Origin: an uncultured Bacteroidales bacterium
GTDB lineage: Bacteria > Bacteroidota > Bacteroidia > Bacteroidales > F082
Assembly: GCA_905234275.1 (NCBI GenBank)
Contig: CAJOHD010000005.1
Location: 62,001-126,000, forward strand
Length of the DNA stretch: 64,000 bases
Direction: 5' to 3'
The position numbers and the translations under genes were made by a program. This document shows positions 4,564 through 23,946 of this stretch, piece by piece. Within the stretch, counting starts at the first letter, position 1. Each line of letters starts with the position of its first letter. The notes beneath the pieces are model-generated. The model saw only the letters and a list, made by a program, of their open reading frames with translations, was not told the DNA's origin and searched no databases.

Positions 4564-4579
4564 CAAAAATTTTCAAGCA

Positions 4580-5395
4580 ATGATAACTTTAAGCAACTAT
4601 CCGTTTCTGAAAAATCTCAAGCCTAATCGTTTCTTCCTTCTCGCAGGTCCTTGCGTCATAGAAGATGAGGAATCGCCTTTTAAAATTGCCGAGACACTTG
4701 TGAAAATTACAAAGAAACTCGACATTCCTTTTGTTTTCAAAGGTTCGTATCGTAAGGCAAACCGTTCGCGTCTGGATTCGTTTCAGGGGATAGGGGATGA
4801 GAAGGCTCTCAATGTCTTGAAAAACATATCGAAACAATATAATGTTCCTGTTGTAACTGATATCCATTCTTGCGAGGAAGCCGCTATGGCTGCAGAATAT
4901 GTCGATATCCTGCAAATCCCGGCATTCCTTTGCCGTCAAACCGACCTCCTTGTGGCAGCTGCGAAAACAGGTAAGATCGTGAATATTAAAAAAGGTCAGT
5001 TCCTTTCTGGAGATTCGATGCGTTTTGCTGTTGAAAAAGTGCAACAGTCAGGAAATCAGTCGGTTATGCTTACGGATAGAGGCAATTTCTTCGGTTATCA
5101 GGACCTTGTTGTCGATTATCGCAACATCTACGATATGCAGAAAAACAACGTGCCAGTCATCATGGATGTCACGCATTCGCTGCAGCAGCCGAACCAGACA
5201 GGTGGCGTCACTGGCGGCAAACCCGAGCTTATTGAATTGATTTCCAAGGCCGCCATCGCTGTGGGTGCCGACGGTCTCTTCATGGAAACACATCCAAATC
5301 CAGCCCTCGCCAAATCCGATGGCGCCAACATGCTCCGCCTCGAACTTGTCGAAGAATTGCTAACAAAACTCGTAAGAATTAAGGAATCTCTGTAA
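4580..5395 (+). CDS. kdsA: 3-deoxy-8-phosphooctulonate synthase (KDO-8-phosphate synthase)
   Basis: This enzyme condenses phosphoenolpyruvate with arabinose 5-phosphate to KDO-8-phosphate, the precursor of the lipopolysaccharide inner core. The 271-residue protein has the DAHP-synthase-like TIM barrel motifs FLLAGPCVIEDE, FKGSYRKANRS, TDIHSCEEA, LQIPAFLCRQTDLL, VMLTDRG and DVTHSLQQPN. Cysteine in GPCVIE, where the E. coli enzyme has asparagine, points to the metal-dependent class. The start is ATG 4580, because the frame's upstream TTG at 4553 overlaps the promoter. It is monocistronic and converges with aat. Confidence 0.95.
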   Translation: MITLSNYPFLKNLKPNRFFLLAGPCVIEDEESPFKIAETLVKITKKLDIPFVFKGSYRKANRSRLDSFQGIGDEKALNVLKNISKQYNVPVVTDIHSCEEAAMAAEYVDILQIPAFLCRQTDLLVAAAKTGKIVNIKKGQFLSGDSMRFAVEKVQQSGNQSVMLTDRGNFFGYQDLVVDYRNIYDMQKNNVPVIMDVTHSLQQPNQTGGVTGGKPELIELISKAAIAVGADGLFMETHPNPALAKSDGANMLRLELVEELLTKLVRIKESL

Positions 5396-5416
5396 TATTT
5401 ACCAGTTTTCAATAAC

Positions 5417-5455
5417 CTATAAACAGTAAACAATTAACTCTCAACTGTCAACTGC
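5417..5455. repeat. 7-base array spanning the end of aat
   Basis: TAAACAG, TAAACAA, TTAACTC, TCAACTG and TCAACTG units run from the kdsA-aat gap into the aat reading frame. They encode the last residues of Aat (QLTVES). Confidence 0.45.
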
Positions 5456-6183
5456 ATGAGTTCGGCGCTCCCGTCGCCCCAGTTCCCGACGAGACTCCGT
5501 TCTTTCACAAGTCCCTTCAGTATCTTCATAAACTCTTTCCTTGGGATAGGTGCAGCACCCATTCTTCGCATGTGTCCGGTTTCCTGCTGAGCGTCAATGA
5601 GTTCGAAGCCATTTCTGATTAAAAACTGGCATAAATTGTACAACGCCACTTTCGAAGCATCGGTTTTGGTGTGGAACATCGACTCAGCGCAGAAAACCTT
5701 GCCGATGGCAACGCCGTAAAGCCCTCCGACGAGCTCATTATCCTGATAAACCTCCACTGAATGAGCAAAACCTAACCTGTGAAGTTCACAATATGCCGCA
5801 ATCATGTCCTCACTCATCCACGAGCTGGGCTCGTCTTGGTCTTCTTCCTCCTCAGCCTGGTCGTCGGTGCGCGGTACAGAAGCACACGCATTTATAACTC
5901 CTTCAAAATCAGCGTCGAAGGAACAAGAGTATTTATTCGACTCGAGTGTCTTCCACAACGATTTCGTGACTTTCAAGTCTGTCGGTTTCAACACCATTCT
6001 TGGGTCTAAAGCCCACCATAATATTGGTTCTCCTTCCGAATAGAATGGAAATATTCCCGATGAGTAGGCGACGAGCAGCCTCTCGGGTGATAAATCTCCG
6101 CCAATTGCAAGTAATCCGTCATTCGTCGATTGGCTAACAGGCGGAAAATCATATACCTCGTCTTTGAGCATGTATACTGGCAT
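5434..6183 (-). CDS. aat: Leucyl/phenylalanyl-tRNA--protein transferase
   Basis: Aat adds Leu or Phe from aminoacyl-tRNA to N-terminal Arg or Lys of proteins, creating N-degrons for ClpS/ClpAP. The 249-residue protein carries the family blocks DGLLAIGGDLSPERLL, SGIFPFYSEGEPILWWALDP, HSVEVYQDNELVGGLYG, FCAESMFH and FELIDAQQETGHMRRMGA. An acidic insert at residues 106-119 (TDDQAEEEEDQDEP) lies in the loop where relatives have a short turn. The C-terminus is written by a 7-base repeat array. ATG 6183 lies 31 bases after a -7 element. It is convergent with kdsA and divergent from truA. Confidence 0.95.
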   Translation of the reverse strand: MPVYMLKDEVYDFPPVSQSTNDGLLAIGGDLSPERLLVAYSSGIFPFYSEGEPILWWALDPRMVLKPTDLKVTKSLWKTLESNKYSCSFDADFEGVINACASVPRTDDQAEEEEDQDEPSSWMSEDMIAAYCELHRLGFAHSVEVYQDNELVGGLYGVAIGKVFCAESMFHTKTDASKVALYNLCQFLIRNGFELIDAQQETGHMRRMGAAPIPRKEFMKILKGLVKERSLVGNWGDGSAELMQLTVES

Positions 6184-6214
6184 GGCTTTACGATTTTGAG
6201 GTTAAATTTCACCA

Positions 6215-6272
6215 CAAAGATAAAAATTATTTTTCAATTATGCAAGTCTTTTGCGCATTTTTTTTAATTTTG
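6215..6272. promoter_or_regulatory. Divergent promoters of aat and truA
   Basis: On the minus strand TATCTTTG (6222-6215) has a TTG 20 bases upstream and serves aat. On the plus strand TAATTTTG (6265-6272) lies 16 bases before the truA ATG. Both match TAnnTTTG. Confidence 0.55.
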
Positions 6273-6288
6273 CAAGGCGAAAATTTTT

Positions 6289-7017
6289 ATGAATAGGTAT
6301 TTCTTACATTTGGCATACAACGGAAAAGCTTATCACGGCTGGCAAATCCAACCGGGTGACATATCCGTGCAGGAGGTGCTTGAAAGATGTATCAGCCTCA
6401 AACTGAAACAGACCATCTCCGTTACCGGATGTGGGCGCACCGATACAGGTGTGAATGCCAGAAATTTCTATGCGCATTTCGAAAGTGAACCGATAGAAAA
6501 TCCGGAAGAATTTGTAAATCAATTGAATATGTTTCTTCCAGATGACATCGTCGTGTATCGCTGCTGGCAGGTCGACCCATATTTCCATGCCCGCTTCGAT
6601 GCGAAGTCGCGCACCTATCATTATTATGTCACTCGCACCAAGAATCCTTTCCACACCGACGACACCTTATATATATATGGTCCGCTCGATGTAGAAAAGA
6701 TGAACGAGGCCGCTAAGATTCTCTTTGAATATCAAGATTTTACAAGCTTTTCGAAGCTTCATACACAAGTAAAAACGAACAATTGCCGTATTATGGAAGC
6801 CTATTGGTTCGAACAGAATGGTCTGTTGGTTTTCAGCATCAAAGCCGATAGATTTCTGCGCAATATGGTTCGCGCCATAGTCGGCACCTTGCTCGAAGTG
6901 GGGAAGGGGAAACTCTCTCTTGATGGTTTCCGTAGAATCATCGAACAAAAAGACCGTTGCTCCGCCGGCACCTCAATGCCCGCCCACGCCCTCTTCCTCG
7001 AAGAAGTCACTTACTAA
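6289..7017 (+). CDS. truA: tRNA pseudouridine(38-40) synthase
   Basis: TruA isomerises uridines 38-40 of the tRNA anticodon arm to pseudouridine. The 242-residue protein has the N-terminal LAYNGKAYHGWQIQPG, the catalytic aspartate loop GCGRTDTGVNARNF, the RFDAKSRTYHYYV strand and the C-terminal FLRNMVRAIVGTLLEVG. Length is normal for the family. ATG 6289 lies just after the -7 element. The last 11 bases overlap the 3' end of the convergent GH97 gene. Confidence 0.96.
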   Translation: MNRYFLHLAYNGKAYHGWQIQPGDISVQEVLERCISLKLKQTISVTGCGRTDTGVNARNFYAHFESEPIENPEEFVNQLNMFLPDDIVVYRCWQVDPYFHARFDAKSRTYHYYVTRTKNPFHTDDTLYIYGPLDVEKMNEAAKILFEYQDFTSFSKLHTQVKTNNCRIMEAYWFEQNGLLVFSIKADRFLRNMVRAIVGTLLEVGKGKLSLDGFRRIIEQKDRCSAGTSMPAHALFLEEVTY

Positions 7018-9013
7018 TAATAACCGCTCCTCCGCCGCTCTTCATCTCAATCTTTATTCTGTTATCTGTTATCTTTTTCTCTGTTATCTTGTAATCCTCG
7101 GCATTTCGATTAGCATTAACCCCATCACAATAAATAATAACACTGCTGTCATTCCGAGCGAAGCGAGGAATCTCAATCTCCACCGTTCTCGCCTCCCAAT
7201 TCGTTATCGCTCCAATATACCACGTTTCTCCTGAACGTCTCGCAATCACTGCATATTCCCCGAGCTTGCCATCAAGCGCAATTGTCTCGTCCCACACCGT
7301 TGGCACGCTGGCGATGAAATCGACGCTCTCTTGGTTTTGCATGTACTTCGTCGGGCTGTCGCACAGCATGTTGAACGGCGACTCAAACAAAACATACTCA
7401 GCGAGTTGTCTGCATCGTGTGCCTTGGCTCATCGGGTTGGTGTAGATAGCTCTGAAGTGATATTTTGTGGCGTTGTCCATCGCGCCCTGAGTGTAATCCA
7501 AATTTCCCGCCACCATCCTGATGTACGGGATCATGCACTCGTAATTCACCTGGTTGAGGTCGTCGTCCCATTTCGACTGCTCCAAACCGTAAACACCCTC
7601 GAAATTCAGCACGTTAGGGTAGGTGCGGCTCAGTCCCGTAGGCTTGTAAGCACCATGAAAATCAACGAATAAGTGATATTTTGCCGCCATCGCCGCCATC
7701 CTGTAGTAGAAATCCACAACTTTCTGATCGTCACGGTCCATAAAATCGACTTTAAATCCCTTGATTCCCATCTCGCTGTAGTGTTTGCACACATGTTCCA
7801 TATCTCTGTCGATGGCAACATATCCTGCCCAAAGCACCAATCCGACATTGCGCTCGTTGGCGTATGAGACGAGTTCCTCAAGATTGATTTCAGGTACCAC
7901 TTGGAACAAATCTGCCTGCTTGTTCACCGCCCAGCCTTCGTCCAAAATCACATATTCTATGCCGTTTTTCGATGCGAAATCGATGTAATATTTATATGTG
8001 TCGTTGTTGATGCCTGCCTTGAAATCCACACCCCAGATGTTCCAGTTGTTCCACCAGTCCCAAGCCACCTTTCCAGGCTTGATCCAACTCACGTCTTCAA
8101 CTCTCGAAGGCGATGCGAGTTTGTAAACCATATCGCTGTTCATGAGCTCGGCATCGTTCTCTGAGATCACCATGGCTCTCCACGGGAAATCCCTTGTCCC
8201 GTTGACCTTTGCGACGAAATCTTCACGCTCTTTCACCACCATCTGCAGCATGTTATGTCCGCCTTGTTCCTCAACTTTCGGATATGTCGACTGCACCGCT
8301 TCCAGACTGTTTCCTTTGCCTTTTCTGAAGAAAGTGCCAGGATAATCTTCCAAATCAGACTCCACAATCACCGCTTTTTTGCCATTTTGCAAGCATATTA
8401 ATAAAGGTGTGAAAGCGATGCGTTCATTGTCCATTTTTGAAATCGAGTCAACGGTGTATTGGCTTTCGAAAGAAGTGAAAAACTGCTGAGTCAAGAAGTC
8501 TCCGTCGCCTTTGCGGGCGTTCACGTATGGAATATATGCCACATAATCGTCATCAAAACAATAATTTACATTTTCTTTCTTCACAATAATCGGCTTCTTG
8601 AAACTCGTCGAAAACCGATAAGCCACTCCGTCGTCAAAAGCTCTGAAAGTCAGTTTGTAATTTCCTTTGAAATTGATAATCAATTCGTTATAATTGTTTG
8701 TGACTTTTGCTTTTTTATAAAAATTGGCATCAATAATCTCATTAACTGAATTAGTTTTCACACTTTTTACTTGTCCTAATCGTCCTAAAACAGTCCCATC
8801 TCCCAGCTCCATCGATATCGGTGAATCCTCAATAATCACAGTGCTTTCATGCATCACCGAATACTTTACCTCATCTCCAATACTTATAGTCACTTCAATC
8901 TTCCCATTCGGCGACTTTAACTCGTATTCTTTACTATTGGACTTATTTGCCCCATAAATCATATTAATCCCGCTAATTACAAGGATTAACAATAAAAACA
9001 ATACTCTTTTCAT
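7007..9013 (-). CDS. Glycoside hydrolase family 97 enzyme
   Basis: The 668-residue protein has a signal peptide (about residues 1-21, ISGINMIYGA) and the GH97 layout: N-terminal beta-sandwich, TIM barrel and C-terminal beta domain. Seen motifs are WAMVISENDAELM, WIKPGKVAWDWWN, YVILDEGWA, GIKGFKVDFMDRDDQ and FEGVYGLEQ. The Asp of KVDFMD corresponds, from family knowledge, to the nucleophile of retaining (alpha-galactosidase-like) GH97 members rather than the inverting SusB type; that is inference. Near the C-terminus EIPRFARND is encoded by a 27-base hairpin repeat, and KITEKKITDNR by a GTTATCT-type array. No SusC/SusD pair lies nearby, so it is not in a polysaccharide-utilisation locus here. 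Confidence 0.9.
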   Translation of the reverse strand: MKRVLFLLLILVISGINMIYGANKSNSKEYELKSPNGKIEVTISIGDEVKYSVMHESTVIIEDSPISMELGDGTVLGRLGQVKSVKTNSVNEIIDANFYKKAKVTNNYNELIINFKGNYKLTFRAFDDGVAYRFSTSFKKPIIVKKENVNYCFDDDYVAYIPYVNARKGDGDFLTQQFFTSFESQYTVDSISKMDNERIAFTPLLICLQNGKKAVIVESDLEDYPGTFFRKGKGNSLEAVQSTYPKVEEQGGHNMLQMVVKEREDFVAKVNGTRDFPWRAMVISENDAELMNSDMVYKLASPSRVEDVSWIKPGKVAWDWWNNWNIWGVDFKAGINNDTYKYYIDFASKNGIEYVILDEGWAVNKQADLFQVVPEINLEELVSYANERNVGLVLWAGYVAIDRDMEHVCKHYSEMGIKGFKVDFMDRDDQKVVDFYYRMAAMAAKYHLFVDFHGAYKPTGLSRTYPNVLNFEGVYGLEQSKWDDDLNQVNYECMIPYIRMVAGNLDYTQGAMDNATKYHFRAIYTNPMSQGTRCRQLAEYVLFESPFNMLCDSPTKYMQNQESVDFIASVPTVWDETIALDGKLGEYAVIARRSGETWYIGAITNWEARTVEIEIPRFARNDSSVIIYCDGVNANRNAEDYKITEKKITDNRIKIEMKSGGGAVIISK
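7059..7091. repeat. GTTATCT-type 7-base array in the GH97 coding end
   Basis: CTGTTATCTGTTATC and CTGTTATCTTG units lie in the reading frame of the GH97 gene. A similar array lies just before that gene's start (9016-9046). Confidence 0.5.
7148..7174 (+). repeat. Hairpin repeat copy 2, inside the GH97 gene
   Basis: The plus strand starts GTCATTCCGAGCGAAGCGAG and ends GAATCTC. TTCC and GGAA at its sides pair, with inner GCG/CG pairing. It is 27 bases long and in frame; on the minus strand it encodes EIPRFARND. It shares its two ends with the copy at 1973-2005. Confidence 0.75.
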
Positions 9014-9015
9014 CT

Positions 9016-9046
9016 CTGTTATCTATTATCTTTTATCTGTTATCTA
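9016..9046. repeat. GTTATCT-type 7-base array before the GH97 gene
   Basis: CTGTTATCTATTATC, then TTTATCTGTTATCTA, lie in the leader between the -7 element (9055-9062) and the ATG at 9013. They would be transcribed as the mRNA leader. Confidence 0.5.
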
Positions 9047-9054
9047 ATTTTTCA

Positions 9055-9102
9055 CAAATTTATTACAAAAACTCTTTCATATCCAAAAAATCATTATTTT
9101 TG
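9055..9102. promoter_or_regulatory. Divergent promoters of the GH97 gene and pepE
   Basis: On the minus strand TAAATTTG (9062-9055) serves the GH97 gene. On the plus strand TATTTTTG (9095-9102) lies 24 bases before the pepE ATG. Both match TAnnTTTG; -33 elements are not clear. Confidence 0.5.
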
Positions 9103-9126
9103 TAGAAAATTTTAATCTTTATAAAT

Positions 9127-9891
9127 ATGAGAAACTTACTTTTAATCAGCAATTCAACAAACTTTGGTGAAACATATTTGGCTTGGGCAATGACTCAGCT
9201 CGAGCAGTTTTTTGACAAAAACAAACTCGGTGCCGACAGCAAGGTGGCGTTTGTGCCTTTCGCTGGTGTCTTCATCGGCTGCAACCCTTATCCGAAGAGC
9301 TATGACGCTTATACTGAGAAGGTTAAAAAGGTTTTTAACGAGAAACTCGGTGTGAAGAAATTCGTTTCAGTTCACGAAGTTGAAGATAAAGTCGGTCTTG
9401 TGAAAACTGCTGACTGCATTGTTGTTGGCGGCGGAAACACATTCCATCTCGTTGCTGAGCTTCATAAATACGGCTTGATGCAGGCTATCGCTGAATGCGC
9501 CAACGATGGCACACCTTACATCGGATGGAGCGCCGGATCAAACATCGCCTGCCCGACATTGTGCACCACAAACGACATGCCAATAGTACAACCAGCAAGC
9601 TTTAACACATTGAACCTCATTCCATTCCAAATCAATCCTCACTATCTCGATCCTCATCCGGAAATCGACAAGATGATTAAACACGGTGGCGAGACACGTC
9701 AGGACCGTATCAACGAATATCTTGCTGTCCGTCAGGAGATGAAGGTCGTGGGATTGCGTGAAGCAACGGCAATTTGGGTTATCGGCGACAAATATTACCT
9801 CAAAGGCGGCAAGAAAATGATGATTTTCCAATACGGCAAAGAGCCTGTCGAGCTTGAACCTAATCAGGAAATCACGAAGTTCGTTCTGTAG
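9127..9891 (+). CDS. pepE: Dipeptidase E (peptidase family S51)
   Basis: PepE hydrolyses dipeptides with an N-terminal aspartate. The 254-residue protein shows MRNLLLISNS at the start, the VVGGGNTFHLV strand and the nucleophile elbow GWSAGSNIACPTL, in which the serine is catalytic. NPHYLDPHPE further on probably contributes the His. There is no signal peptide, so it is cytoplasmic. Length is slightly above the E. coli enzyme. It is monocistronic with its own -7 element, and the large DUF6175 operon promoter follows directly. Confidence 0.9.
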   Translation: MRNLLLISNSTNFGETYLAWAMTQLEQFFDKNKLGADSKVAFVPFAGVFIGCNPYPKSYDAYTEKVKKVFNEKLGVKKFVSVHEVEDKVGLVKTADCIVVGGGNTFHLVAELHKYGLMQAIAECANDGTPYIGWSAGSNIACPTLCTTNDMPIVQPASFNTLNLIPFQINPHYLDPHPEIDKMIKHGGETRQDRINEYLAVRQEMKVVGLREATAIWVIGDKYYLKGGKKMMIFQYGKEPVELEPNQEITKFVL

Positions 9892-9907
9892 AAAATTGAG
9901 TTTTTTG

Positions 9908-9937
9908 TTGCACTATTAAAATTATTTTTTATATTTG
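9908..9937 (+). promoter_or_regulatory. Promoter of the DUF6175 operon
   Basis: TTG at 9908-9910, a 19-base spacer and TATATTTG at 9930-9937 form a full match to the Bacteroidota housekeeping promoter. The first ATG lies at 9967. No further promoter with this match is seen in the short gaps of the operon. Confidence 0.7.
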
Positions 9938-9966
9938 CAAGTTAAAATGTTGCTTGTTAAATTGGT

Positions 9967-11391
9967 ATGTTGAAAAAATTGTCATTCATATTATTGATAA
10001 TCACTGCGTTTCTGACTGGCGCATATGCTCAGAACAGGGATGCTAACAACATTCTCAATGCCCAATTTGACGTGCGTATCGGCGGCGTTGGACCGAAAGG
10101 TACCAAGATTATCGAGATGCGCATCATAGCCAACACTCTTGAAGAAGCCCATGAATACGCCCAGCGTGATGCTGTGGCTGTGTGTCTGCTGCGCGGACTG
10201 CCGGCATCGACGAAGACACGCCCGACACCTCCTATCGTGAAAGAAAGCGTTATCGAGGCAAACGAAGCGTATTTTATTGATTTTCTTAGTGTTCCGAAAT
10301 CAAAGAAAGTTGTCGGTAAATATGCCAGATATGTCCAAAAATCTTGGGAAGCCGACATAAAAGAACTCGATTATGGCGTTGATGTGATAATCGATGTGCA
10401 GGTTCTTTACGACAACCTTCTCCAGTATATGCAGGATAAAGGATTTGCCGAAAAACCTCAAGAAACGGTAACGAGCAAATATCTGAAACCTGTCATAATG
10501 GTAGTCCCGGCTGATGTTTACTGCACCGAGATGGACTTCGTTCAGAAGTGGAAAGACGAGAATGGCAAAGTGCAGACAATATCTGATTATAACATATTCG
10601 GAAGAGAAGACAGCCGCGACCTGCGTCTGGTGATATCATCACTAAACGATATTTTTGCTTCACGAGGATTTGAGACGATAAGCCTTGAATTCCTCCTCAA
10701 GAGTTTGAATAGCGAAAATGACGAAAACGCCTTTATTGGCGAGGATTACGGCTTGGCGGGCACTGTCAAGGAATCACCGCTCGACCGCATCAAACGTGCA
10801 TCAAACGTCGATTTTATCGTTGACCTCGACTTCGCACTTTATGAAATTGATGACTACAGATATGTCGCTTTCAATATGCGTGCCGTCGACCCTTGCTCAA
10901 ACGCGGTGGAGATAGCTCATGCCTATGGCGATGGACGCCCGTCAAGGGTTTCAACAGTCAACACACTGCTCGAAGAGGCGGTCATCAACTATGTCGACGA
11001 TTTCTGCGACGCTATTCAGCGCCAATATAAGAAAATGGAAACCGACGGTCATCGTGTAACCGTGAAAATCAAGAAAACCGACAACTCGGACTACGATTTC
11101 CAGCGTTCGAAATTCTTGTATGACGGCAAAATGGAGAAGCTTTGCGACATCATCTACTATTGGCTGCAGGACAACACCATCGACAATAACCCTACAAGAA
11201 ACATCACACCTAACGTGTTGACATTCAATCAGGTGATGATTCCGATGATAACGGTGAACAAAAAAGGTGCGGTACGCCGCCTCGATTCAAATGAATATGT
11301 GACACAGCTTCAGGAGTTCCTCCTCGATAATTATAATATTGAAAGCACTATTTATATGAGAGGTCCAGGCGAAGCTTGGTTGATAATTTAA
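9967..11391 (+). CDS. DUF6175 family exported protein, copy 1
   Basis: A 474-residue exported protein with a signal peptide at residues 1-21 (LTGAYA before QNRD). Residues about 33-160 hold an AxxxAxxDAVAVCLLRG helix followed by a VDVIIDVQVLYDNLLQYMQ strand-helix; this looks like the LPP20/FlgT-N type of fold. Residues about 174-355 (KPVIMVVPADVYC, VISSLNDIFASRGFE, ASNVDFIVDLDF, VAFNMRAVD, LLEEAVINYVDDF) match DUF6175 and resemble the TolB-N/CsgG fold in strand order. Residues 360-474 are a third alpha/beta domain. Fold comparisons are by eye. It is first in the operon; its close paralogue is at 12501-13934. The function is unknown. Confidence 0.85.
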   Translation: MLKKLSFILLIITAFLTGAYAQNRDANNILNAQFDVRIGGVGPKGTKIIEMRIIANTLEEAHEYAQRDAVAVCLLRGLPASTKTRPTPPIVKESVIEANEAYFIDFLSVPKSKKVVGKYARYVQKSWEADIKELDYGVDVIIDVQVLYDNLLQYMQDKGFAEKPQETVTSKYLKPVIMVVPADVYCTEMDFVQKWKDENGKVQTISDYNIFGREDSRDLRLVISSLNDIFASRGFETISLEFLLKSLNSENDENAFIGEDYGLAGTVKESPLDRIKRASNVDFIVDLDFALYEIDDYRYVAFNMRAVDPCSNAVEIAHAYGDGRPSRVSTVNTLLEEAVINYVDDFCDAIQRQYKKMETDGHRVTVKIKKTDNSDYDFQRSKFLYDGKMEKLCDIIYYWLQDNTIDNNPTRNITPNVLTFNQVMIPMITVNKKGAVRRLDSNEYVTQLQEFLLDNYNIESTIYMRGPGEAWLII

Positions 11392-11414
11392 TTGATTGAT
11401 ATTAAACGATTTAT

Positions 11415-11879
11415 ATGAGAAAAATATCTTTACTATTAAGTCTTGCGATGATTGTGACGCTGCTTTCTTCATGTGGCACAATATATCAGAAAATCAAATA
11501 TTCCAATAAAGATATTGAGATAAGCAACCCTTGTGAAGGTGAGGAAATTGATTTCAAGCTCATCTCGTTGATTGGCGATAAAGACGAGCAGACAATGGTG
11601 CTTAATTGCAGGTTCATCAACAGAAATGTAAACAAAGATATTCGTGTCAGAAACTTCATGGCTTATGATACAGAAGGAGTTGCACATAATACTTCAAGAA
11701 GTAATGAATATAAAGCTCTGACTGATAAAAAAGTCAATTTCTCGATCGATGTTCCAGGTAAAGTCGTGCCGAAAAAGGTGAAAAAAATGGCTGTGATAGC
11801 TTTTGATATCGACGACTGCCACATTGAGATGAGAAATGTCCCGATTATTTGGAAAAAAATAAAGAAAGAAGATAAGTAA
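11415..11879 (+). CDS. Small lipoprotein, beta-rich, paralogue of the next gene
   Basis: A 154-residue lipoprotein with lipobox LLSSC at residue 20. The mature part is one beta-sandwich-like domain running from ISNPCEGEEIDFKLISLIG through NFMAYDTEG, a LTDKKVNFSIDVPGKV stretch and a final CHIEMRNVPIIWK. The same pattern, residue for residue in many places, forms the C-terminal domain of the next gene. The family is not recognised. The position 23 bases after a DUF6175 gene and 20 before its paralogue suggests a partner of the DUF6175 proteins in the periplasm or at a membrane. Confidence 0.8.
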   Translation: MRKISLLLSLAMIVTLLSSCGTIYQKIKYSNKDIEISNPCEGEEIDFKLISLIGDKDEQTMVLNCRFINRNVNKDIRVRNFMAYDTEGVAHNTSRSNEYKALTDKKVNFSIDVPGKVVPKKVKKMAVIAFDIDDCHIEMRNVPIIWKKIKKEDK

Positions 11880-11899
11880 TCATTTAAAAATCATTGAAT

Positions 11900-12490
11900 A
11901 TGAAGAAATTAATCTACTTTTTAATCGCTTTTATGTTTATTTCGGTGATTCCGGAAATAGCTGTGGCTCAATCAAACGACCCGTTTGAGCAGCAAACTCT
12001 CAAAGCAAGAGACAATACTACAAAAAGAGAGAAGAAAATTAACCGTAAGAAGGACGCTGAGTCTGAGGTGAAAGAAGCTCCGGCAGAAGCTCCAAAACAG
12101 GAAGTTAAAAAGGAAAGCACCAAGCAGGTTAATGCAAGTGAGATGACAATTTCAAACCCTTGCGACGAATGGCTTGATGTGGAAATGGTGTCACTTATCG
12201 GCAGCAAAGCCAATCAGACGATTAAGCTTACAATGAAGATGACTAACCATGGATTGAACAAAGAAATCAGTGTCGGTGGTAATTTCCTCGCTTATGATTG
12301 CGAAGGTGAGGAGCACTCAAGAGGCTATTCCAGTGGATATTACAACACTTTGACAGATATTCCTGTGAAGTTCACGATCGAAGTGCCAGGTAAGATTAAC
12401 CCTTCGAAGACCAAAGTGATGCCGGTGATGAGCTTCAATCTTGGCGACTGCCGCATCGAAATGAGAAACGTGCCAATTAACTGGAAATAA
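11900..12490 (+). CDS. Exported beta-rich protein with charged linker
   Basis: A 196-residue protein with a signal peptide (SVIPEIAVA before QSNDP). A Lys/Glu/Ala-rich linker (residues about 30-75, with EVKEAPAEAPKQEVKKE) is followed by the same domain as in the preceding lipoprotein: ISNPCDEWLDVEMVSLIG, then NFLAYDCEG, FTIEVPGKI and CRIEMRNVPINWK. ATG 11900 is preferred over the in-frame TTG six bases earlier because it gives a normal signal peptide. The function is unknown; the linker could span the periplasm or peptidoglycan. Confidence 0.8.
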   Translation: MKKLIYFLIAFMFISVIPEIAVAQSNDPFEQQTLKARDNTTKREKKINRKKDAESEVKEAPAEAPKQEVKKESTKQVNASEMTISNPCDEWLDVEMVSLIGSKANQTIKLTMKMTNHGLNKEISVGGNFLAYDCEGEEHSRGYSSGYYNTLTDIPVKFTIEVPGKINPSKTKVMPVMSFNLGDCRIEMRNVPINWK

Positions 12491-12500
12491 AATTATCGTT

Positions 12501-13934
12501 ATGAAAAATATTATCAGATTCGGATTTTTAGCGTTTGCTCTGGTTCTTGTGGCCGGTAGCGCATTTGCCCAGAAACAGAACGAAAAACGCTCGGTCCTTG
12601 ACCAAAAGTATGAGGTTCAATACATTGGAGTAGGTCAGGACGGAACCAAAGTGTTCACTGTGACAACGACAGCCAAAGACCCTGCTGAAGGTGTTGAGAT
12701 GGCGAAACGCGACGCTGTGGCAGCTTGCCTTTTCCGCGGAATCACCGCATCAGGCAACACAAAAGCCACTCCAGCTATCGTGACATACGCAAAAGCAGAG
12801 GAAAATATTGAATTCTTCGAGAGTTTCTTGGCACTTCCAACCAAAAAGGCTCCAGGTGGACAGTATCATCGTTTCATCAACAAGACAGGCAATCCTCAAT
12901 CAGTGAAAAATGGTAAGGAATATACCGTTTCCGTTGATGTTCAAGTGCTTTACGATGAACTCGTGAAATACATGCAGGACAAAGGTTATGCTGAGAAAAT
13001 CAAAAACACCGACGCTGGCAAATATGCAAAGCCGATGCTGATGGTGGTGCCTTCTGACGTGTATTGCAACGAAATGGGCTATGTCCAGAAATGGAAAGAT
13101 GAGAATGGCCGTGAACAAACTATCGTTGACTATGATATCTTTGGCAGAGAAGACAGCCGTGACCTCCGTCTCGTGATAGCTTCATTGAACGAGATTTTCA
13201 AGAACAAAGGTTTTGAGACTCAGAGCCTTGAGTTCTTGCTGAAGAGTATGAAACAGGAAGATCAGGAGAATGCTTTGGTCGGCGACGACTACGGTCTCGA
13301 CGGCGCTATCGCTGAGTCTCCAATCGACCGCATCAAACGTACAGCTAATGTCGACTTCATCGTTGACCTTGACTTCGAAGTGATGGAGAAGGGCATGGGA
13401 CGCTATGTTTCATTCAATATGAGAGCTGTCGATGTGAGCGCAAATGCAAGAGAAATCGCACACGCTCATGGCGACGGAAAGCCATCAAATTCAGCGACAA
13501 TCAACACTTTGCTTGAAGAGGCAGTGCTCAACCACATGGATTCTTTCTGCAAGAAACTGCAGGATGAGTTCGTCGATATGTCAATCAACGGTCGTCAGAT
13601 CACTGTTAAAATCAAGAGAACTGACAACTCTGACTACGACTTCCTGAGAACAACATTCGCTTTCGAAGGCGAGCAGACAACTCTCGGCGACATCATCTAC
13701 TATTGGCTGCAAGACAACACCGTTGATAACAATCCGACAAGAGTTATCACACCTAACGTCTTGACTTTCAATCAGGTGATGATTCCTTTGACAAAAACTG
13801 GACGTCGTGGAGCTATCCAACGTGTTGATACTCAAGATTATTTACAAGGTTTGCAAACATATTTGAGAAACAACTATAATATCGACGGTACGATTTATAT
13901 GCGCGGTCCGAGCGAGGTTTGGTTGGTTCTGTAA
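12501..13934 (+). CDS. DUF6175 family exported protein, copy 2
   Basis: A 477-residue paralogue of the 9967-11391 protein with the same three-part layout and a signal peptide (VAGSAFA before QKQNE). The middle domain is nearly the same (MLMVVPSDVYC, QKWKDENG, IFGREDSRDLRLVIASLNEI), while the N-terminal domain differs more. DNSDYDF and IIYYWLQDNTVDNNPTR in the C-terminal domain are shared word for word or almost so. Keeping both copies in one operon suggests they form a mixed assembly or have different partners. The gap to the gene before is 10 bases. Confidence 0.85.
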   Translation: MKNIIRFGFLAFALVLVAGSAFAQKQNEKRSVLDQKYEVQYIGVGQDGTKVFTVTTTAKDPAEGVEMAKRDAVAACLFRGITASGNTKATPAIVTYAKAEENIEFFESFLALPTKKAPGGQYHRFINKTGNPQSVKNGKEYTVSVDVQVLYDELVKYMQDKGYAEKIKNTDAGKYAKPMLMVVPSDVYCNEMGYVQKWKDENGREQTIVDYDIFGREDSRDLRLVIASLNEIFKNKGFETQSLEFLLKSMKQEDQENALVGDDYGLDGAIAESPIDRIKRTANVDFIVDLDFEVMEKGMGRYVSFNMRAVDVSANAREIAHAHGDGKPSNSATINTLLEEAVLNHMDSFCKKLQDEFVDMSINGRQITVKIKRTDNSDYDFLRTTFAFEGEQTTLGDIIYYWLQDNTVDNNPTRVITPNVLTFNQVMIPLTKTGRRGAIQRVDTQDYLQGLQTYLRNNYNIDGTIYMRGPSEVWLVL

Positions 13935-13949
13935 TTAAAATTTATTGAT

Positions 13950-14498
13950 ATGAAAAAGATAAAATTCTTAATTCTGGCAGCAATTTGCGCAATATCCGGA
14001 ATACTCTGCGCCCAAGAGGAAATGAGCTTCGAGCAGATGATCCCTGTACGCGTGCTCATGCCGAAAAACGACCAGGTTAAAGGTGATGCTCTTACAGTAT
14101 TGTATAACAATGTAAATCAGGCAGTTACACTTAACGGACTCGGCTCATCAACAAATGAAAGCCGTTTCATTATCGTGACATCAGTCACAATTCTTTCAAA
14201 AAATGTAACAACTTCAATACCGCCTCAATATATGGCTGAGGTTGAAGTCGCTTTCTATTTCGTTGACAATATTAATAAGGTGATTCTCGCTCAGGAGATG
14301 ATTACCAAAAAAGCCATGGATGACAATGATAACAGAGCTGTCGCCAAAGCTATCAAATCAATCAAGGCTCGTGATCCTAAGTTGAAGAAACTCATCACAA
14401 TAGGTAAGAAAAGAGCTATTGAATATTATAAGGCAATTGACGAGACTGAGTCTTCAGAAGAGAACGCCGAACCTAATGTTTCATGGATTTTTGAATAA
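13950..14498 (+). CDS. Exported protein of unknown family
   Basis: A 182-residue protein with a signal peptide (SGILCA before QEEM). The mature part has LTVLYNNVNQAVTLNG, a strand set RFIIVTSVTILSKNV, MAEVEVAFYFVD and a C-terminal helix KKRAIEYYKAI, then an acidic tail SSEENAEP. The pattern of strands about one small metabolite-like or assembly domain recalls the CsgG/TolB-N group, but I do not recognise a family. It is fifth in the operon, 15 bases after copy 2 and 15 before the next gene. Confidence 0.75.
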   Translation: MKKIKFLILAAICAISGILCAQEEMSFEQMIPVRVLMPKNDQVKGDALTVLYNNVNQAVTLNGLGSSTNESRFIIVTSVTILSKNVTTSIPPQYMAEVEVAFYFVDNINKVILAQEMITKKAMDDNDNRAVAKAIKSIKARDPKLKKLITIGKKRAIEYYKAIDETESSEENAEPNVSWIFE

Positions 14499-14513
14499 TA
14501 AATATCTGTAAAA

Positions 14514-15446
14514 ATGAGAAAATTATTGATAATAGCTTTTGCGATGATGCTTCCTCTCTGTGCTTGCGCTCAGAAAAAAGGATTCAAACTTGTTGAAAAA
14601 AGCGGTCCTAAACCTGAATGGGTAGGGAAGGGTAGTGTGCAAGATTTTATTATTGTCCAGTCGGATAAGCCAACGCTTGAAGAGGTCAAGGCTGACGCTA
14701 TGCAGAAAGTTCGCACTGAAATAGCATCATCAGTGGCTACAAACGTGATGCGTACCGTTAATTCTTACACTCAGAAGACAGTTGAAGGCAACAATGCAAG
14801 CACAAACGCCACAATGTCGATAGAATCAACCTCAAAAATTGCTAAAATGCCTGCTATTCAAGGCGTTAGCATCACTAAGGCTGAGACTTATCAAGAGTTG
14901 TATCAGAATAAAAAAACCGGAGAAAAGTATTATAATCTGTATGTGAAATATCCATTTTCACGTTTCGATTTGGTCGAGCTTGTCACAGCTTATGAGAAAC
15001 ATGAGAAAGAACTTGACGATAAGATCGCAGGTTATGAAGATGGATTGGACAACATCGAAACTGTTGAGCAGGTTGATGATGCCATCACAGCTCTCGGCGC
15101 GCTCTCAAAAGAACTCGGAACTGATGATTCGAGATATTTTACCGTCGAAGGTCTTATCAACAGATATATCGGCGTTTATGACAACATAATCATTGATATT
15201 GTTGACAATACAACAGGAAAGCTTACCATTAAGCTGGTGTACAACGGCAAAACAATTATGACATCGCAAAAACCTCGTACATCATCGAATTGCGCCACAC
15301 AGTTTAATGTGAAATACATCGGTGACACTATCGTCATCAATTACAATTCCGACTATTGCTATAGCCAGGATGACAACTATGTGGAGGTGCGTTTCAGATT
15401 CGGCTCTAAATTTGTCAAAGAAAAAGCGTTTTTTAATGTGAAATAA
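14514..15446 (+). CDS. LPP20-like exported protein
   Basis: A 310-residue protein with an N-terminal export signal (MMLPLCACA; either signal peptidase I or a lipobox at the first or second Cys). Residues about 27-150 fit the LPP20 pattern: GPKPEWVGKG, then an Ala-spaced helix (EEVKADAMQKVRTEIASSVA), a Ser/Thr/Asn-rich loop and YYNLYVKYPFSRFDLVEL. Residues 160-220 are helical, and about 220-310 form a beta domain (IIIDIVDNTTGKLTIKLVYN). LPP20-like proteins include FlgP of the Vibrio and Campylobacter motor disk. Membership is inferred by pattern only. Confidence 0.7.
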   Translation: MRKLLIIAFAMMLPLCACAQKKGFKLVEKSGPKPEWVGKGSVQDFIIVQSDKPTLEEVKADAMQKVRTEIASSVATNVMRTVNSYTQKTVEGNNASTNATMSIESTSKIAKMPAIQGVSITKAETYQELYQNKKTGEKYYNLYVKYPFSRFDLVELVTAYEKHEKELDDKIAGYEDGLDNIETVEQVDDAITALGALSKELGTDDSRYFTVEGLINRYIGVYDNIIIDIVDNTTGKLTIKLVYNGKTIMTSQKPRTSSNCATQFNVKYIGDTIVINYNSDYCYSQDDNYVEVRFRFGSKFVKEKAFFNVK

Positions 15447-15479
15447 ATTAACTTAATTATTAACAAAAATCTTATTATC

Positions 15480-16055
15480 ATGAAAAAGATTAACTTACTT
15501 TTAGGAATCGCATTGATTTCTTTACTCGTTGCTTCTTGCGGCTCAAGCAAGGAAGTTGCTCAGAAACCACAGAATCAGCCGGCAGATTTGCCATGCCCAG
15601 ACTGCACAGCATCAAAGGGTAATTTCAAGTATCTGGCACAGACACTCGCTGAAAGCGAATACGACATCCAATCAGCACGTATTTTTGCAGAGCAGAATGC
15701 TCGTGACGGTATCCAGGCTATGATTGAGTCAGTTGTCCAAAGATCAGTTGACCAGTTCACACAGCAGCACCGTGATGGCGATAACGTGAAAAATATCGCT
15801 AAAGGTACAATCCAGTCAATCGGCGTTGTGAAGGGTAAACTTAAAAACACTCCTGTGACATGCTGGGATGCTCAGCCAAGCAAGCTCACCCCTGGTAAGA
15901 TCGCTGTTTATGTCTGCATCGAATATTCAGGCGAAGATGTTTTGAATACAGTCGTTGAGACAATGAGCGCTGACACAGAGTTGAAGATTGACTTCAAACA
16001 GGAGCAATACAAGAACGATTTCTACAAAGCCCTTGAAGAATACGGCAATAATTAA
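15480..16055 (+). CDS. LPP20-like lipoprotein
   Basis: A 191-residue lipoprotein with lipobox LVASC (Cys20). CPDCTASKG follows, then a long Ala-rich amphipathic helix (SARIFAEQNARDGIQAMIES) and strands IGVVKGKLKN and IAVYVCIEYSGEDVL, the same order of elements as the preceding protein's LPP20-like part. It is the last of the seven exported proteins. The Ca2+-ATPase gene starts two bases after its stop, which suggests translational coupling. Confidence 0.75.
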   Translation: MKKINLLLGIALISLLVASCGSSKEVAQKPQNQPADLPCPDCTASKGNFKYLAQTLAESEYDIQSARIFAEQNARDGIQAMIESVVQRSVDQFTQQHRDGDNVKNIAKGTIQSIGVVKGKLKNTPVTCWDAQPSKLTPGKIAVYVCIEYSGEDVLNTVVETMSADTELKIDFKQEQYKNDFYKALEEYGNN

Positions 16056-16057
16056 TA

Positions 16058-18784
16058 ATGAAGTATCAAGGACTTGATAAGAAACAAGTAGAACAAAGCC
16101 GTGCTTTGCACGGCTTTAATATTCTTACTCCTCCGCAAAAGGAGTCGATCTTTCATCAGTTTTTGGGCAAATTCAAGGATTCGATAATTCAGATCCTGCT
16201 GATAGCCCTTGCACTTTCCATCGGAGTAGCTGTGTATCAATATGTTACTACCGATGAAGGCTATAACGTTTTGTTTGAGCCACTGGGAATTTTTGTGGCT
16301 ATAATGTTGGCGACATGCGTTGGATTCATATTTGAGCTCAACGCCAATAAAAAATTCGATATCCTCAATCAGGTTAATGATGAGGAAACCGTGAAAGTTG
16401 TTCGCGACGGCAATGTCACACTCATCCAACGGCGCGAGATTGTCGTTGGCGACATCGTGATTATTGAAACAGGCGATGAGGTGCCGGCTGACGGTATCCT
16501 CCTTGACGCTTTTTCATTGCAGGTCAATGAATCAGACCTTACAGGAGAGCCGATGGCACGAAAAACCACTGACGAGAAAGACTTCAATAACGAGGCCACA
16601 TATCCTTCAAATTGGGTTATGAGAGGCAGCAAAGTTATTGATGGTCATGGAATTATGCAGGTTGAAAAAATCGGCGACGCCACCGAATGGGGCAAGGTTT
16701 ACAAAGGCTCCCAAATAGACAACAATGTCAAAACACCTTTGAATATCCAACTCGACAGACTTGGACAGCTGATTTGCTATGCGAGCTACATCATCGCGGC
16801 AGTGATTCTTGTGACTCGTTTCATAATGTATTTCGTTTATGCTGAAAACATTGGGACTGGCATCAATTGGATTCAGTTTGCACGATTCGCACTGAATACA
16901 TTGATGATTGCTGTCACAATTATCGTGGTAGCTGTTCCGGAAGGCCTCCCGATGAGTGTCACTTTAAGTCTTGCACTAAGCATGCGTAGAATGTTGATTA
17001 CCAACAACTTGGTTAGAAAACTACACGCATGCGAGACTATGGGTGCTGCAACGGTGATTTGCACCGACAAGACAGGCACTTTGACACAAAATCAGATGAG
17101 TGTCAATGATATTTTGTCATATAGCGGATGTAATGATGTTTTAAAAGAATGTATTTCTGTCAATACAACCGCTTTTCTCGATTTTACTGATAAAGAAAAA
17201 GTTAAGGCGATAGGCAATCCAACCGAGGGAGCGCTTCTGTTATGGCTTTATAATCAAGGAGTTAACTATCTTGACTATAGAGAGAATATGAAGCTGCTGT
17301 ATCAGGTGCCGTTCTCCACGAAATATAAGTTTATGGCTACGATCGTCGATTCCAAGACGTTCAAAAAGCCAATGTTTTATGTGAAAGGCGCTCCGGAAAT
17401 CATTCTTGCGCATTGTAACAAAATAGCCACAGAAGATGGCATCGTAGATATCGCGTCATATCGTGAAACCATTGTAAATCAATTAAGTGCATATAACGAT
17501 AAGGCGATGAGGACGCTTGCGTTGGCATATAAAGAAGCTGATGAGAATGAGCAGTCGTTTGATCCTAAAACTGATAATCTCGTCGCTGATAACCTCATCT
17601 TTGTCGCTGCTGTCGCCATCGCTGACCCTATTCGTCCTGATGTCGCTGATGCTGTGGCAAGCTGCATGAAAGCAGGCATTGACGTTAAAATCGTGACGGG
17701 CGACACTCCTGGAACGGCTATTGAGATAGGTCGTCAGCTGGGATTGTGGAAAGATACCGACCAAAAAGATTTCAACCATATCTCAGGCAAAGATTTTGAA
17801 GCTCTTTCCGATGAGGAGGCAAGACGTCGCATCCCGCTGATAAAGATTATGTCGCGTGCTCGACCGATGGATAAGGAACGCTTAGTGCGTCTGCAGCAGG
17901 CTTACGGCGAAGTTGTGGCAGTCACTGGCGACGGCACCAATGACGCTCCTGCACTGAAAGCCGCTCAAGTGGGACTCTCAATGGGTGATGGCACGACGGT
18001 GGCAAAAGAAGCCTCCGACATCACAATTCTCGATAATTCTTTCAGAAGCATCGTTCGCGCAGTGATGTGGGGACGCTCACTTTACTTGAATATACAACGT
18101 TTCGTGCTGTTCCAGATGACAATCAACGTGGCGGCATGTCTCGTGGTGATGTTCGGCGCTTTGCTCGGCACCGACCCGGTTCTCACTGTAACTCAGATGC
18201 TCTGGGTTAACCTGATCATGGATACCTTTGCGGCTCTCGCACTTGCGTCACTGCCACCGTCAGAAAGCGTGATGAATGAGAAACCTCGCTCAAAAGACGC
18301 GCACATACTGACAAAGCAAATGAAGCGCTCGATCCTCATCGTAGGAGTTCTGTTTGTGCTGATAATGCTTGGTTTTGTTCAGTATTTCAAACATGTTGAA
18401 GTCAACTCTCTGGCAGAATTCTCCATCATGGATTATCTTTCAAACTTCTTCAATTATAAGATCGTCGGAGCTAAAGCATATACAACATACGAGCATTCGT
18501 TGACATTCACTATATTCGTGTTTTTGCAGTTCTGGAATCTCTTCAATGCAAAAGCATATCATACGGGAGCATCAGCATTTCGTAGTCGTTCGTGGTCTTT
18601 TGGTGGCTTTGAGCTGGCGTTGCTGATAATTCTCATCGGACAGTTTGTCATAGTCACATTCGGTGGCGAGATGTTCAACGTTGAGCCTCTGAAATGGCAA
18701 GATTGGCTGATTTGTTTAATCGGGACAAGCCCGGTTATCATAATTGGTGAACTTATTCGACTTTTTAAAAAAGATAGTTTTTGA
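16058..18784 (+). CDS. Calcium-translocating P-type ATPase (PMCA type)
   Basis: A 908-residue P2B-like ATPase that exports Ca2+ from the cytoplasm at the expense of ATP. Visible are the actuator loop LTGEPM (161-166), the M4 Ca2+ site VAVPEGLPM (291-299), the phosphorylated Asp337 in DKTGTLT, the hinge VTGDGTNDAPALK and the M6 site NLIMDTFAALALA. About ten membrane segments are present, and no N-terminal metal-binding domain is seen. It is co-transcribed with the exported-protein operon. It could serve calcium homeostasis for an envelope assembly, or the link may be only positional. Confidence 0.9.
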   Translation: MKYQGLDKKQVEQSRALHGFNILTPPQKESIFHQFLGKFKDSIIQILLIALALSIGVAVYQYVTTDEGYNVLFEPLGIFVAIMLATCVGFIFELNANKKFDILNQVNDEETVKVVRDGNVTLIQRREIVVGDIVIIETGDEVPADGILLDAFSLQVNESDLTGEPMARKTTDEKDFNNEATYPSNWVMRGSKVIDGHGIMQVEKIGDATEWGKVYKGSQIDNNVKTPLNIQLDRLGQLICYASYIIAAVILVTRFIMYFVYAENIGTGINWIQFARFALNTLMIAVTIIVVAVPEGLPMSVTLSLALSMRRMLITNNLVRKLHACETMGAATVICTDKTGTLTQNQMSVNDILSYSGCNDVLKECISVNTTAFLDFTDKEKVKAIGNPTEGALLLWLYNQGVNYLDYRENMKLLYQVPFSTKYKFMATIVDSKTFKKPMFYVKGAPEIILAHCNKIATEDGIVDIASYRETIVNQLSAYNDKAMRTLALAYKEADENEQSFDPKTDNLVADNLIFVAAVAIADPIRPDVADAVASCMKAGIDVKIVTGDTPGTAIEIGRQLGLWKDTDQKDFNHISGKDFEALSDEEARRRIPLIKIMSRARPMDKERLVRLQQAYGEVVAVTGDGTNDAPALKAAQVGLSMGDGTTVAKEASDITILDNSFRSIVRAVMWGRSLYLNIQRFVLFQMTINVAACLVVMFGALLGTDPVLTVTQMLWVNLIMDTFAALALASLPPSESVMNEKPRSKDAHILTKQMKRSILIVGVLFVLIMLGFVQYFKHVEVNSLAEFSIMDYLSNFFNYKIVGAKAYTTYEHSLTFTIFVFLQFWNLFNAKAYHTGASAFRSRSWSFGGFELALLIILIGQFVIVTFGGEMFNVEPLKWQDWLICLIGTSPVIIIGELIRLFKKDSF

Positions 18785-18786
18785 TT

Positions 18787-19206
18787 ATGAAGATTTTGAT
18801 TTTAAACGGACCTAATCTTAACCTTATCGGCAAGCGAGAGCCTGAAATATATGGCAATCAATCACTTGACGAATATTTTGAAGTTGTCAAAAAACGTTTT
18901 CAAGATTGTAAGATAGATACTTTCCAGTCGAATCACGAGGGCGTTTTGATTGATAAGTTACATGAGGCGATGGGTAAATACGACGGCATTGTCATGAATC
19001 CGGGCGGTTATGCTCACACTTCAATAGCACTCGCTGATGCTATCAGAGCGATAGGGATTCCTGTCGTGGAGGTCCATATCTCGAATATATACGAAAGGGA
19101 AGAGTACCGGCATCATTCTTACACCGCCGAAGCAGCAGTAAAATCTATTGTTGGTAAAGGTTTGGAAGGATATTCTGAAGCAATTTTATACCTCATTAAA
19201 AAATAA
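18787..19206 (+). CDS. aroQ: 3-dehydroquinate dehydratase, type II
   Basis: It converts 3-dehydroquinate to 3-dehydroshikimate in the shikimate pathway. The 139-residue protein has all type II blocks: the N-terminal ILNGPNLNLIGKREPEIYG with the lid tyrosine, FQSNHEG, NPGGYAHTSIALADAI and VEVHISNIYEREEYRHHS, with catalytic His in the last. ATG 18787 is chosen over the TTG at 18781, which lies inside the ATPase stop region. It is last in the operon; a large hairpin follows. Confidence 0.95.
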   Translation: MKILILNGPNLNLIGKREPEIYGNQSLDEYFEVVKKRFQDCKIDTFQSNHEGVLIDKLHEAMGKYDGIVMNPGGYAHTSIALADAIRAIGIPVVEVHISNIYEREEYRHHSYTAEAAVKSIVGKGLEGYSEAILYLIKK

Positions 19207-19287: not shown

Positions 19288-20307
19288 TCAAGAGAAGTCC
19301 TTCTCATCCAGCTCTGTATAAAGCTTCTTTTTCTCCAAGAAGTGCTTAAACACTATATTTTTCTGGTAAACCATCGACACCTTCTTGTGAGGTAGTTCTC
19401 TTCTCTTTTTTCTCAGAATTGGCAGATGTCTGTAGAAGCTTAGATGCGCTCTCGTCACCGCCCATACGTCAGCGAAACAACCGTCGAATAAGAACTTCAA
19501 TCCTGCTATCCAGTCGAGGAGTATTCTGTAGGAAATAGTAGGAAATACTGAGCCTTCAGGAAGGTTTTTCATTAGCAGTGACAGGTTGTTGCGGAAGTTG
19601 AGATATGTCTTTCTTGCTGAGCTTTTAGGCAATGTGCCACCTCCGATGTGATAGACTTTGGATTGTGGGCAATACATCACCTTGTAGTCCATGTTTTTCA
19701 TGCGCCAGCAGAAATCTATCTCCTCCATGTGCGCAAAGAAACTGTCGTCCAAGCCACCGAATCTATGATAAACATCGGACCTTACGAACATACATGCTCC
19801 TGTTGCCCAGAAAACCTCTTTAGTGTCATCATATTGTCCGTTATCTGCTTCCAGATGCTGAAAAACTCTGCCGCGGCAGAAAGGATAGCCGTATTTGTCA
19901 ATGAAACCGCCGCCTGCGCCGGCATATTCGAACTTCTCTTTGTCGTAATACGATAGAATCTTTGGCTGGCAAGCTGCAATGCTGTCATCGCTGTCCATGA
20001 GTTCAATTATAGGCTCAATCCAATGTGGCGTGACTTCGATGTCGGAGTTGAGTAAACAATAATATTTCGCCTCAACCTGACGTAATGCGATGTTGTATCC
20101 AGTCGAAAATCCTCCGTTGAACTCGTTGATTATCAATCTGATATCTGGGAATGCGGACTTCATAAAAGCCACGGAGTCATCGGTAGAGGCGTTGTCGGCA
20201 ACGATGATGTCGGCCACCTCAGAACTGTGTTCGATGACTGTTGGAAGGAACTTCTCAAGGAACTTCTTTCCATTGTAATTCAATATGACTACCGCGACTT
20301 TTTTCAT
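19288..20307 (-). CDS. Family 2 glycosyltransferase
   Basis: The 339-residue protein transfers a sugar from a nucleotide donor, probably to a surface glycan. The GT-A fold is shown by VAVVILNYNGKKFLEKFLP, IIVADNASTDDSV, FNGGFSTGYNIALRQ, the DxD-like LLNSDIEVTP and the ATGACMFVRSDVYHRFGG / EEIDFCWRMK blocks. This resembles rhamnosyltransferase-type WbbL relatives. No neighbouring glycan genes are present, so the acceptor is unknown. The ATG lies only five bases after a -7 element, so the mRNA is probably leaderless. Confidence 0.9.
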   Translation of the reverse strand: MKKVAVVILNYNGKKFLEKFLPTVIEHSSEVADIIVADNASTDDSVAFMKSAFPDIRLIINEFNGGFSTGYNIALRQVEAKYYCLLNSDIEVTPHWIEPIIELMDSDDSIAACQPKILSYYDKEKFEYAGAGGGFIDKYGYPFCRGRVFQHLEADNGQYDDTKEVFWATGACMFVRSDVYHRFGGLDDSFFAHMEEIDFCWRMKNMDYKVMYCPQSKVYHIGGGTLPKSSARKTYLNFRNNLSLLMKNLPEGSVFPTISYRILLDWIAGLKFLFDGCFADVWAVTRAHLSFYRHLPILRKKRRELPHKKVSMVYQKNIVFKHFLEKKKLYTELDEKDFS

Positions 20308-23721: not shown

Positions 23722-23806
23722 GGAGATATGGCAGAGCGGTCGATCGCGGCGGTCTTGAAAACCGTTATACAGAAATGTATCGGGGGTTCGAATCCCTCTG
23801 TCTCCG
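23722..23806 (+). tRNA. tRNA-Ser (anticodon TGA)
   Basis: An 85-base class II tRNA. The acceptor arm GGAGATA pairs with TGTCTCC, with discriminator G. The anticodon stem GCGGT/ACCGT has loop CTTGAAA, giving anticodon TGA. It has a variable arm with TATACAG...TGTAT and the T arm GGGGGTTCGAATCCCTC. CCA is not encoded. Confidence 0.93.
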
Positions 23807-23852
23807 CTGAGAGCAACTCAAAAGGGTTGCTTTTATTTTATAAAAAGGTTGG

Positions 23853-23939: not shown

Positions 23940-23946
23940 CCAAGTG

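Follow-up and report, generated by a model that had tools for sequence, protein, structure and literature searches.

In the Pel exporter, twelve copies of the lipoprotein PelC assemble as a ring on PelB, a barrel protein (PMC12141448). FlgP forms concentric rings, and the SHS2 fold is common to FlgP, Lpp20, and FlgT (PMC12222027). As a caution, Lpp20 itself is dispensable for the disk in Helicobacter pylori (PMC11756786). Here, we analyze a seven-gene operon of exported proteins at positions 9908 to 16055 of a 64-kb stretch of DNA (the window) from an uncultured Bacteroidales bacterium. We propose, with moderate confidence, that genes 4–7 of this operon specify a periplasmic, lipoprotein-anchored ring or scaffold that lies under the outer membrane, is built of FlgT-like parts, and operates without flagella.

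The initial annotation described seven tightly spaced genes behind a single promoter, all with signal peptides or lipoboxes, and the sequence confirms each point. All seven open reading frames are present on the + strand, separated by gaps of 10–33 nucleotides. By eye, every product begins with a signal peptide, and lipoboxes are visible in gene 2 (LLSSC) and gene 7 (LVASC). The promoter pattern occurs at one place within the unit and, counting both strands, at 16 in the window, and it precedes the first gene in 14/14 closest relatives. The features are as follows.

9908 to 9937, + strand: Bacteroidota-type promoter TTG-N19-TATATTTG, upstream of gene 1, read from the sequence
9967 to 11391, + strand: gene 1 (gA), exported N-domain plus DUF6175 protein, paralogue of gene 4
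11415 to 11879, + strand: gene 2 (gB), lipoprotein (lipobox by eye) with a beta-rich domain, paralogue of gene 3 (alignment)
11894 to 12490, + strand: gene 3 (gC), exported protein with a low-complexity linker followed by the gene 2 domain (alignment)
12501 to 13934, + strand: gene 4 (gD), core; N-domain (residues ~25–170), predicted CsgG/PelC/FlgT-M-like middle domain (176–363), C-domain (364–477)
13950 to 14498, + strand: gene 5 (gE), core; single predicted CsgG/PelC/FlgT-like domain
14514 to 15446, + strand: gene 6 (gF), exported protein with an LPP20-like N-terminal domain and a C-terminal region
15480 to 16055, + strand: gene 7 (gG), LPP20-like lipoprotein (lipobox by eye)

Genes 1 and 4, which share ~55% identity, had been assigned to DUF6175. 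They are clear members of this family, which has no known function. Specifically, their matches to PF19672 lie far above the curated cut-off of 23 (gene 1, E 2.9e-63, 214 bits; gene 4, E 2.5e-70, 237 bits), and Pfam and NCBIfam scans of the cassette proteins yielded no other named family. The middle of DUF6175 had been read by eye as TolB-N/CsgG-like, and the predicted structure of the gene 4 product (mean pLDDT 72.6) agrees. Residues 176–363 of the model match PelC (Z 10.3, 117 residues, 2.7 Å), CsgG (Z 10.3), FlgT (3W1E, Z 9.3), DUF330 (9.3), HpaA (9.1), and TolB (8.0). Assignment of this domain to the CsgG/PelC/FlgT-M/TolB-N fold class, which rests on the model, is credible but not certain. 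Its strands 286–297, 300–311, and 318–325 are joined by short turns, with no CsgG-type membrane-spanning hairpin inserts. The N-terminal domain is at most suggestively LPP20/FlgT-N-like: profile–profile comparison with LPP20 gives 6% directly and 57% via a distant fused form, and the gene 4 alignment to FlgT 3W1E starts at residue 47, within the N-domain, but with a root-mean-square deviation of 13.6. The C-domain has no fold match, and FlgT_C has no Pfam match in the DUF6175 proteins.

Gene 5, taken at first for an orphan, is not one. Its predicted model (mean pLDDT 78.1) yields a best Foldseek E of 2.5e-6 with probability 1.00 and matches PelC at E 3.5e-5; Z values of 8.7–9.3 are obtained to HpaA, FlgT, CsgG, PelC, and the LPHT ring, with FlgT and CsgG each at 8.9. 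The predicted CsgG/PelC/FlgT-like fold is clear, and the match is clearer than that of DUF6175. Here too, the strands (73–87, 93–106, and 111–124) are linked by short turns and lack CsgG-type hairpin inserts. The models of genes 4 and 5 both have folds related to CsgG and FlgT (Z 8.9–10.3). Genes 1, 4, and 5 all encode signal peptides without a lipobox or lipid-anchor cysteine.

Genes 6 and 7 had been called LPP20-like, a call that profile–profile comparison upholds. When compared by hhalign to a reference of 25 LPP20-family proteins, gene 6 scores 96.8% (E 3e-10) and gene 7 scores 96.0% (E 4e-9), whereas four unrelated families used as controls score under 1%. Ordinary searches with genes 6 and 7 returned no match to Pfam LPP20 (PF02169) at E up to 1; a relative of gene 7 reaches E 0.063. 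On these profiles, genes 6 and 7 are LPP20-like, and the likeness to Lpp20 and FlgP (LPP20 family, SHS2 fold) includes the lipoprotein nature of gene 7. Unlike FlgP, they are not flagellar, and they fall below the Pfam threshold in ordinary searches. Sequence searches of a structure database with profiles of DUF6175, gene 5, genes 6/7, and the barrel-type protein considered below gave nothing meaningful.

The linkage of these proteins is conserved well beyond the genus. Among 45 DUF6175 loci outside the genus, the gene-5 family lies within two genes after DUF6175 in 39, the N-domain is fused to DUF6175 or lies at most two genes away in 39, a predicted outer-membrane barrel-type protein is encoded at most four genes away in 26, and an LPP20-like gene at most five genes away in 18. 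A reverse search found 36 gene-5 profile matches in 149 genomes, 34 of them directly behind a DUF6175 gene. Most families encode the N-domain and DUF6175 separately, and each of the two proteins carries a signal peptide. The most distant relatives (L181–L185) possess two genes only, one encoding N-domain plus DUF6175 and the other LPP20 plus the gene-5 domain; gene 5 matches the C-terminal part of the distant LPP20 fusion protein at 96.5% (profile–profile). Because they are fused in distant families, the N-domain, DUF6175, LPP20, and gene-5 domains presumably work together. Conservation of gene order, on which the initial annotation had staked its proposal, therefore extends into distant families for the core, but not to genes 1–3, which vary. 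The genome carries a third DUF6175 copy (L061, G000:C2:272000-288000, positions 4569–8948), alongside which are encoded the N-domain, as a gene of its own, a WG-repeat protein, and a relative of the outer-membrane partner that lacks the barrel.

The variability of genes 1–3 emerges from a within-genus comparison of 18 loci from rumen, horse, and related Bacteroidales genomes. Genes 4–6 are present in 17/18 loci, and gene 7 is recognized in 16 of those 17; the eighteenth locus, L051, has genes 1–3 only. Genes 1 and 2 are jointly absent, with gene 3 kept, from five loci, and genes 1–3 are absent from three. These absences, together with the stand-alone L051, mark genes 1–3 as a separable module. 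Thus, the conserved unit is genes 4–7, with genes 1–3 as variable accessories, and the idea of seven genes as one fixed unit was dropped. L051 comes from a horse-faeces genome that carries genes 4–7 on another contig (L052); identity to the window is 88% for gene 1 and 71% for gene 4, a difference that hints at transfer. Genes 2 and 3 are, as had been noted, paralogues with a common beta-rich domain (45% identity in the alignment), and neither has a convincing family match. Their match to gene 7 in the first profile searches was probably due to shared signal peptides, and later profiles were trimmed to the sequence behind the signal peptide.

Outside the genus, the cassette often begins with a gene for a predicted outer-membrane barrel protein. 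Related barrel-type proteins precede or lie near DUF6175 in eight loci of the first set. Most have 540–600 residues and end in a stretch with weak matches to outer-membrane beta-barrel families; this barrel part is short (~150–200 residues), and some copies lack it. The prediction draws on these weak family matches and on our reading of the sequence. The genome under study encodes a 564-residue relative of the partner's N-terminal part (L230, G000:C9:46000-60000, positions 6370–8064), and this gene adjoins genes that by eye resemble an ssb-gldE-gldD cluster.

That no flagellar or curli genes accompany the operon, an early impression from the window, is supported: FlgI was not found in the genome, with control genomes positive, and the CsgG family PF03783 has no match at E ≤ 0.001, the seven window proteins giving none at E up to 1. 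True CsgG genes do occur in similar cassettes elsewhere in the phylum. In L124, the order is a CsgG gene, an LPP20 gene, and a gene-7-like gene, and L127 likewise has a true CsgG gene in a similar cassette. In a parallel of layout, the window cassette looks like a diverged CsgG–LPP20 cassette with DUF6175 in the place of CsgG. The same genome also encodes, at L129 (G000:C1:211000-225000, positions 6818–13740), an LPP20-domain protein and, one gene on, a tandem array of five genes whose N-terminal domains are weakly CsgG-like (home-made profile, E 2e-4 to 2e-6) and whose C-terminal parts vary.

The described protein to which we liken the parts is FlgT, which forms the Vibrio flagellar H/T-ring with FlgO and FlgP. 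The cassette shares with FlgT an exported, CsgG/TolB-N-like middle domain (Z 9.3 for DUF6175, in an alignment that starts within its N-domain, and 8.9 for gene 5) and LPP20/SHS2-type partner proteins. It differs in having no flagellum, in placing the parts on separate genes in most families, and in the unmatched DUF6175 C-domain. From these likenesses we infer a location under the outer membrane, oligomerization, and a scaffold role as the function of the cassette. The notion is that the lipoproteins encoded by gene 7, and by gene 2, would have their anchor in the outer membrane's inner leaflet. Two kinds of domain, the LPP20-like ones (genes 6 and 7) and those with the CsgG/PelC fold (DUF6175 and gene 5), would associate side by side, as in PelC, FlgP, and FlgT, to build a ring or a curved scaffold beneath that membrane. 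In related families, the scaffold would hold the outer-membrane barrel protein whose gene leads the operon, and it would make no pore of its own. Genes 1–3 would be an optional module that contributes one more DUF6175 subunit together with a lipoprotein of its own.

Several findings weigh against such a scaffold. Foldseek with the gene 4 DUF6175 model gave no match at E ≤ 0.001, and many of the Z values are near the level that the comparison tool calls common. When profiles are compared directly, neither DUF6175 nor gene 5 is linked to CsgG (under 9%), and LpoB-like neighbor proteins raise the DUF6175 match to no more than 49%. A barrel gene is missing from the window operon, and the genome's two relatives of the barrel partner, a short one (on contig C2) and the 564-residue one (C9), look barrel-less. 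DUF6175 is found in 67/295 Bacteroidales genomes and 19/395 phylum-wide genomes; the cassette is dispensable, given that its distribution is patchy, also within genus and family. Finally, the fold is also used by the non-ring proteins LptE, TolB, and DUF330/PqiC, which score here too.

This last point is the basis of the strongest alternative, which we regard as possible though rather unlikely: the cassette proteins share the fold and form no ring, acting instead, in the manner of LptE, TolB-N, or PqiC/DUF330, as small accessory subunits in the periplasm that aid another envelope machine, for example the barrel protein. LptE and TolB have a CsgG-type fold without ring formation, which counsels caution, and outside the genus a barrel-type gene often accompanies the cassette on its upstream side (26/45). 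Against this alternative, several ring-related domain types are co-encoded, the CsgG/PelC fold twice and LPP20 twice, and are even fused. The closest Z matches include PelC, CsgG, and FlgT, and the lack of a barrel gene in the window operon counts against an accessory role as well.

It is improbable that the cassette supplies an LpoB-type activator of peptidoglycan synthesis, in which CsgG-fold domains would reach across from the outer membrane and activate a penicillin-binding protein. In several loci, a protein near DUF6175 or the N-domain matches both LpoB (PF13036, E down to 3e-9) and CsgG (E down to 2e-8), and such proteins also show weak FlgT_C hits. In L187 and L210, an LpoB-family protein (PF13036, E 2e-8 to 3e-9) that also matches CsgG is encoded ahead of DUF6175, adjoining it or the N-domain, and LpoB is among the Foldseek matches of the gene 4 model, with probability 0.94. 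However, the stretches matched by PF13036 and PF03783 coincide, and the LpoB label may therefore reflect no more than the fold; no cell-wall synthesis gene was recognized in the linked loci, whose neighbors were partly annotated.

Quite improbable is a polysaccharide exporter in which the cassette proteins form a PelC-like funnel and the barrel protein the exit pore. The DUF6175 middle domain has its best fold match in PelC, gene 5 also matches PelC strongly, and many cassette relatives have a barrel partner, as PelC has PelB. Unlike PelC, gA, gD, and gE have no lipobox, the DUF6175 proteins carry two extra domains, and the operon is without polysaccharide-synthesis genes, the window containing one convergent glycosyltransferase-like gene at 19288–20307. 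The barrel part is also short, and the window operon lacks the barrel gene altogether.

Least probable of these alternatives is a CsgG-like secretion pore with its own transmembrane barrel, which the initial annotation had entertained: CsgG, the curli secretion channel, shares the fold class, ranks among the best matches of both models, and has genes in similar LPP20 cassettes, but the gene 4 and gene 5 models, on which this point depends, run through consecutive predicted strands and short turns without the membrane-spanning hairpins of CsgG, and the DUF6175 proteins and gene 5 lack both its lipid-anchor cysteine and a PF03783 match.

Two further genes follow the cassette closely on the same strand.

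16058 to 18784, + strand: PMCA-type calcium P-type ATPase (NCBIfam TIGR01517, E 8e-192)
18781 to 19206, + strand: aroQ-like gene (type II 3-dehydroquinate dehydratase), identity by eye

The ATPase gene starts 2 nucleotides past the gene 7 stop, and the aroQ-like gene overlaps its end; the 3' border at 16055 is therefore doubtful. The operon start at the promoter stands, and the transcription unit probably extends beyond gene 7, via the calcium ATPase and aroQ-like genes, to 19206. Close relatives also have the calcium ATPase gene downstream of the cassette. A perfect 10-pair hairpin (16095–16117) lies in the first codons of the ATPase gene and was rejected as an operon terminator because of its position inside coding sequence. 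In 6/18 of the within-genus loci (L038, L039, L041, L043, L044, and L050), an extra exported gene (~420–440 residues where complete), without a family match, stands directly past gene 7 and precedes the ATPase gene where the contig extends far enough. Further downstream, the window contains a tandem pair of tRNA-Ser genes (anticodons TGA and CGA; 23722–23942).

The fold classes described here are already known; the cassette is not described in the literature searched. That search, which most subscription journals lay outside, found no mention of DUF6175 and no paper combining LPP20 and CsgG. Our analysis offers a testable role for the unnamed family DUF6175 and recasts the gene-5 family, an orphan by sequence, as one with a CsgG/FlgT fold that is coupled to DUF6175. 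A single conserved cassette connects these two families with LPP20 proteins and with a predicted barrel protein. A broader proposal, which we consider unlikely, is that Bacteroidota keep the parts of ring proteins such as FlgT as separate genes, and that these specify an undescribed non-flagellar ring machine present in many families, with DUF6175 in the CsgG role and, outside the genus, a barrel of its own. If so, flagellar H/T-rings and basal disks would be one specialized use of a much wider kit. Rings of this type have been described in flagella, curli, and Pel export; one that stands alone in bacteria without flagella would inform both the purpose of these rings and the origin of the flagellar ring.

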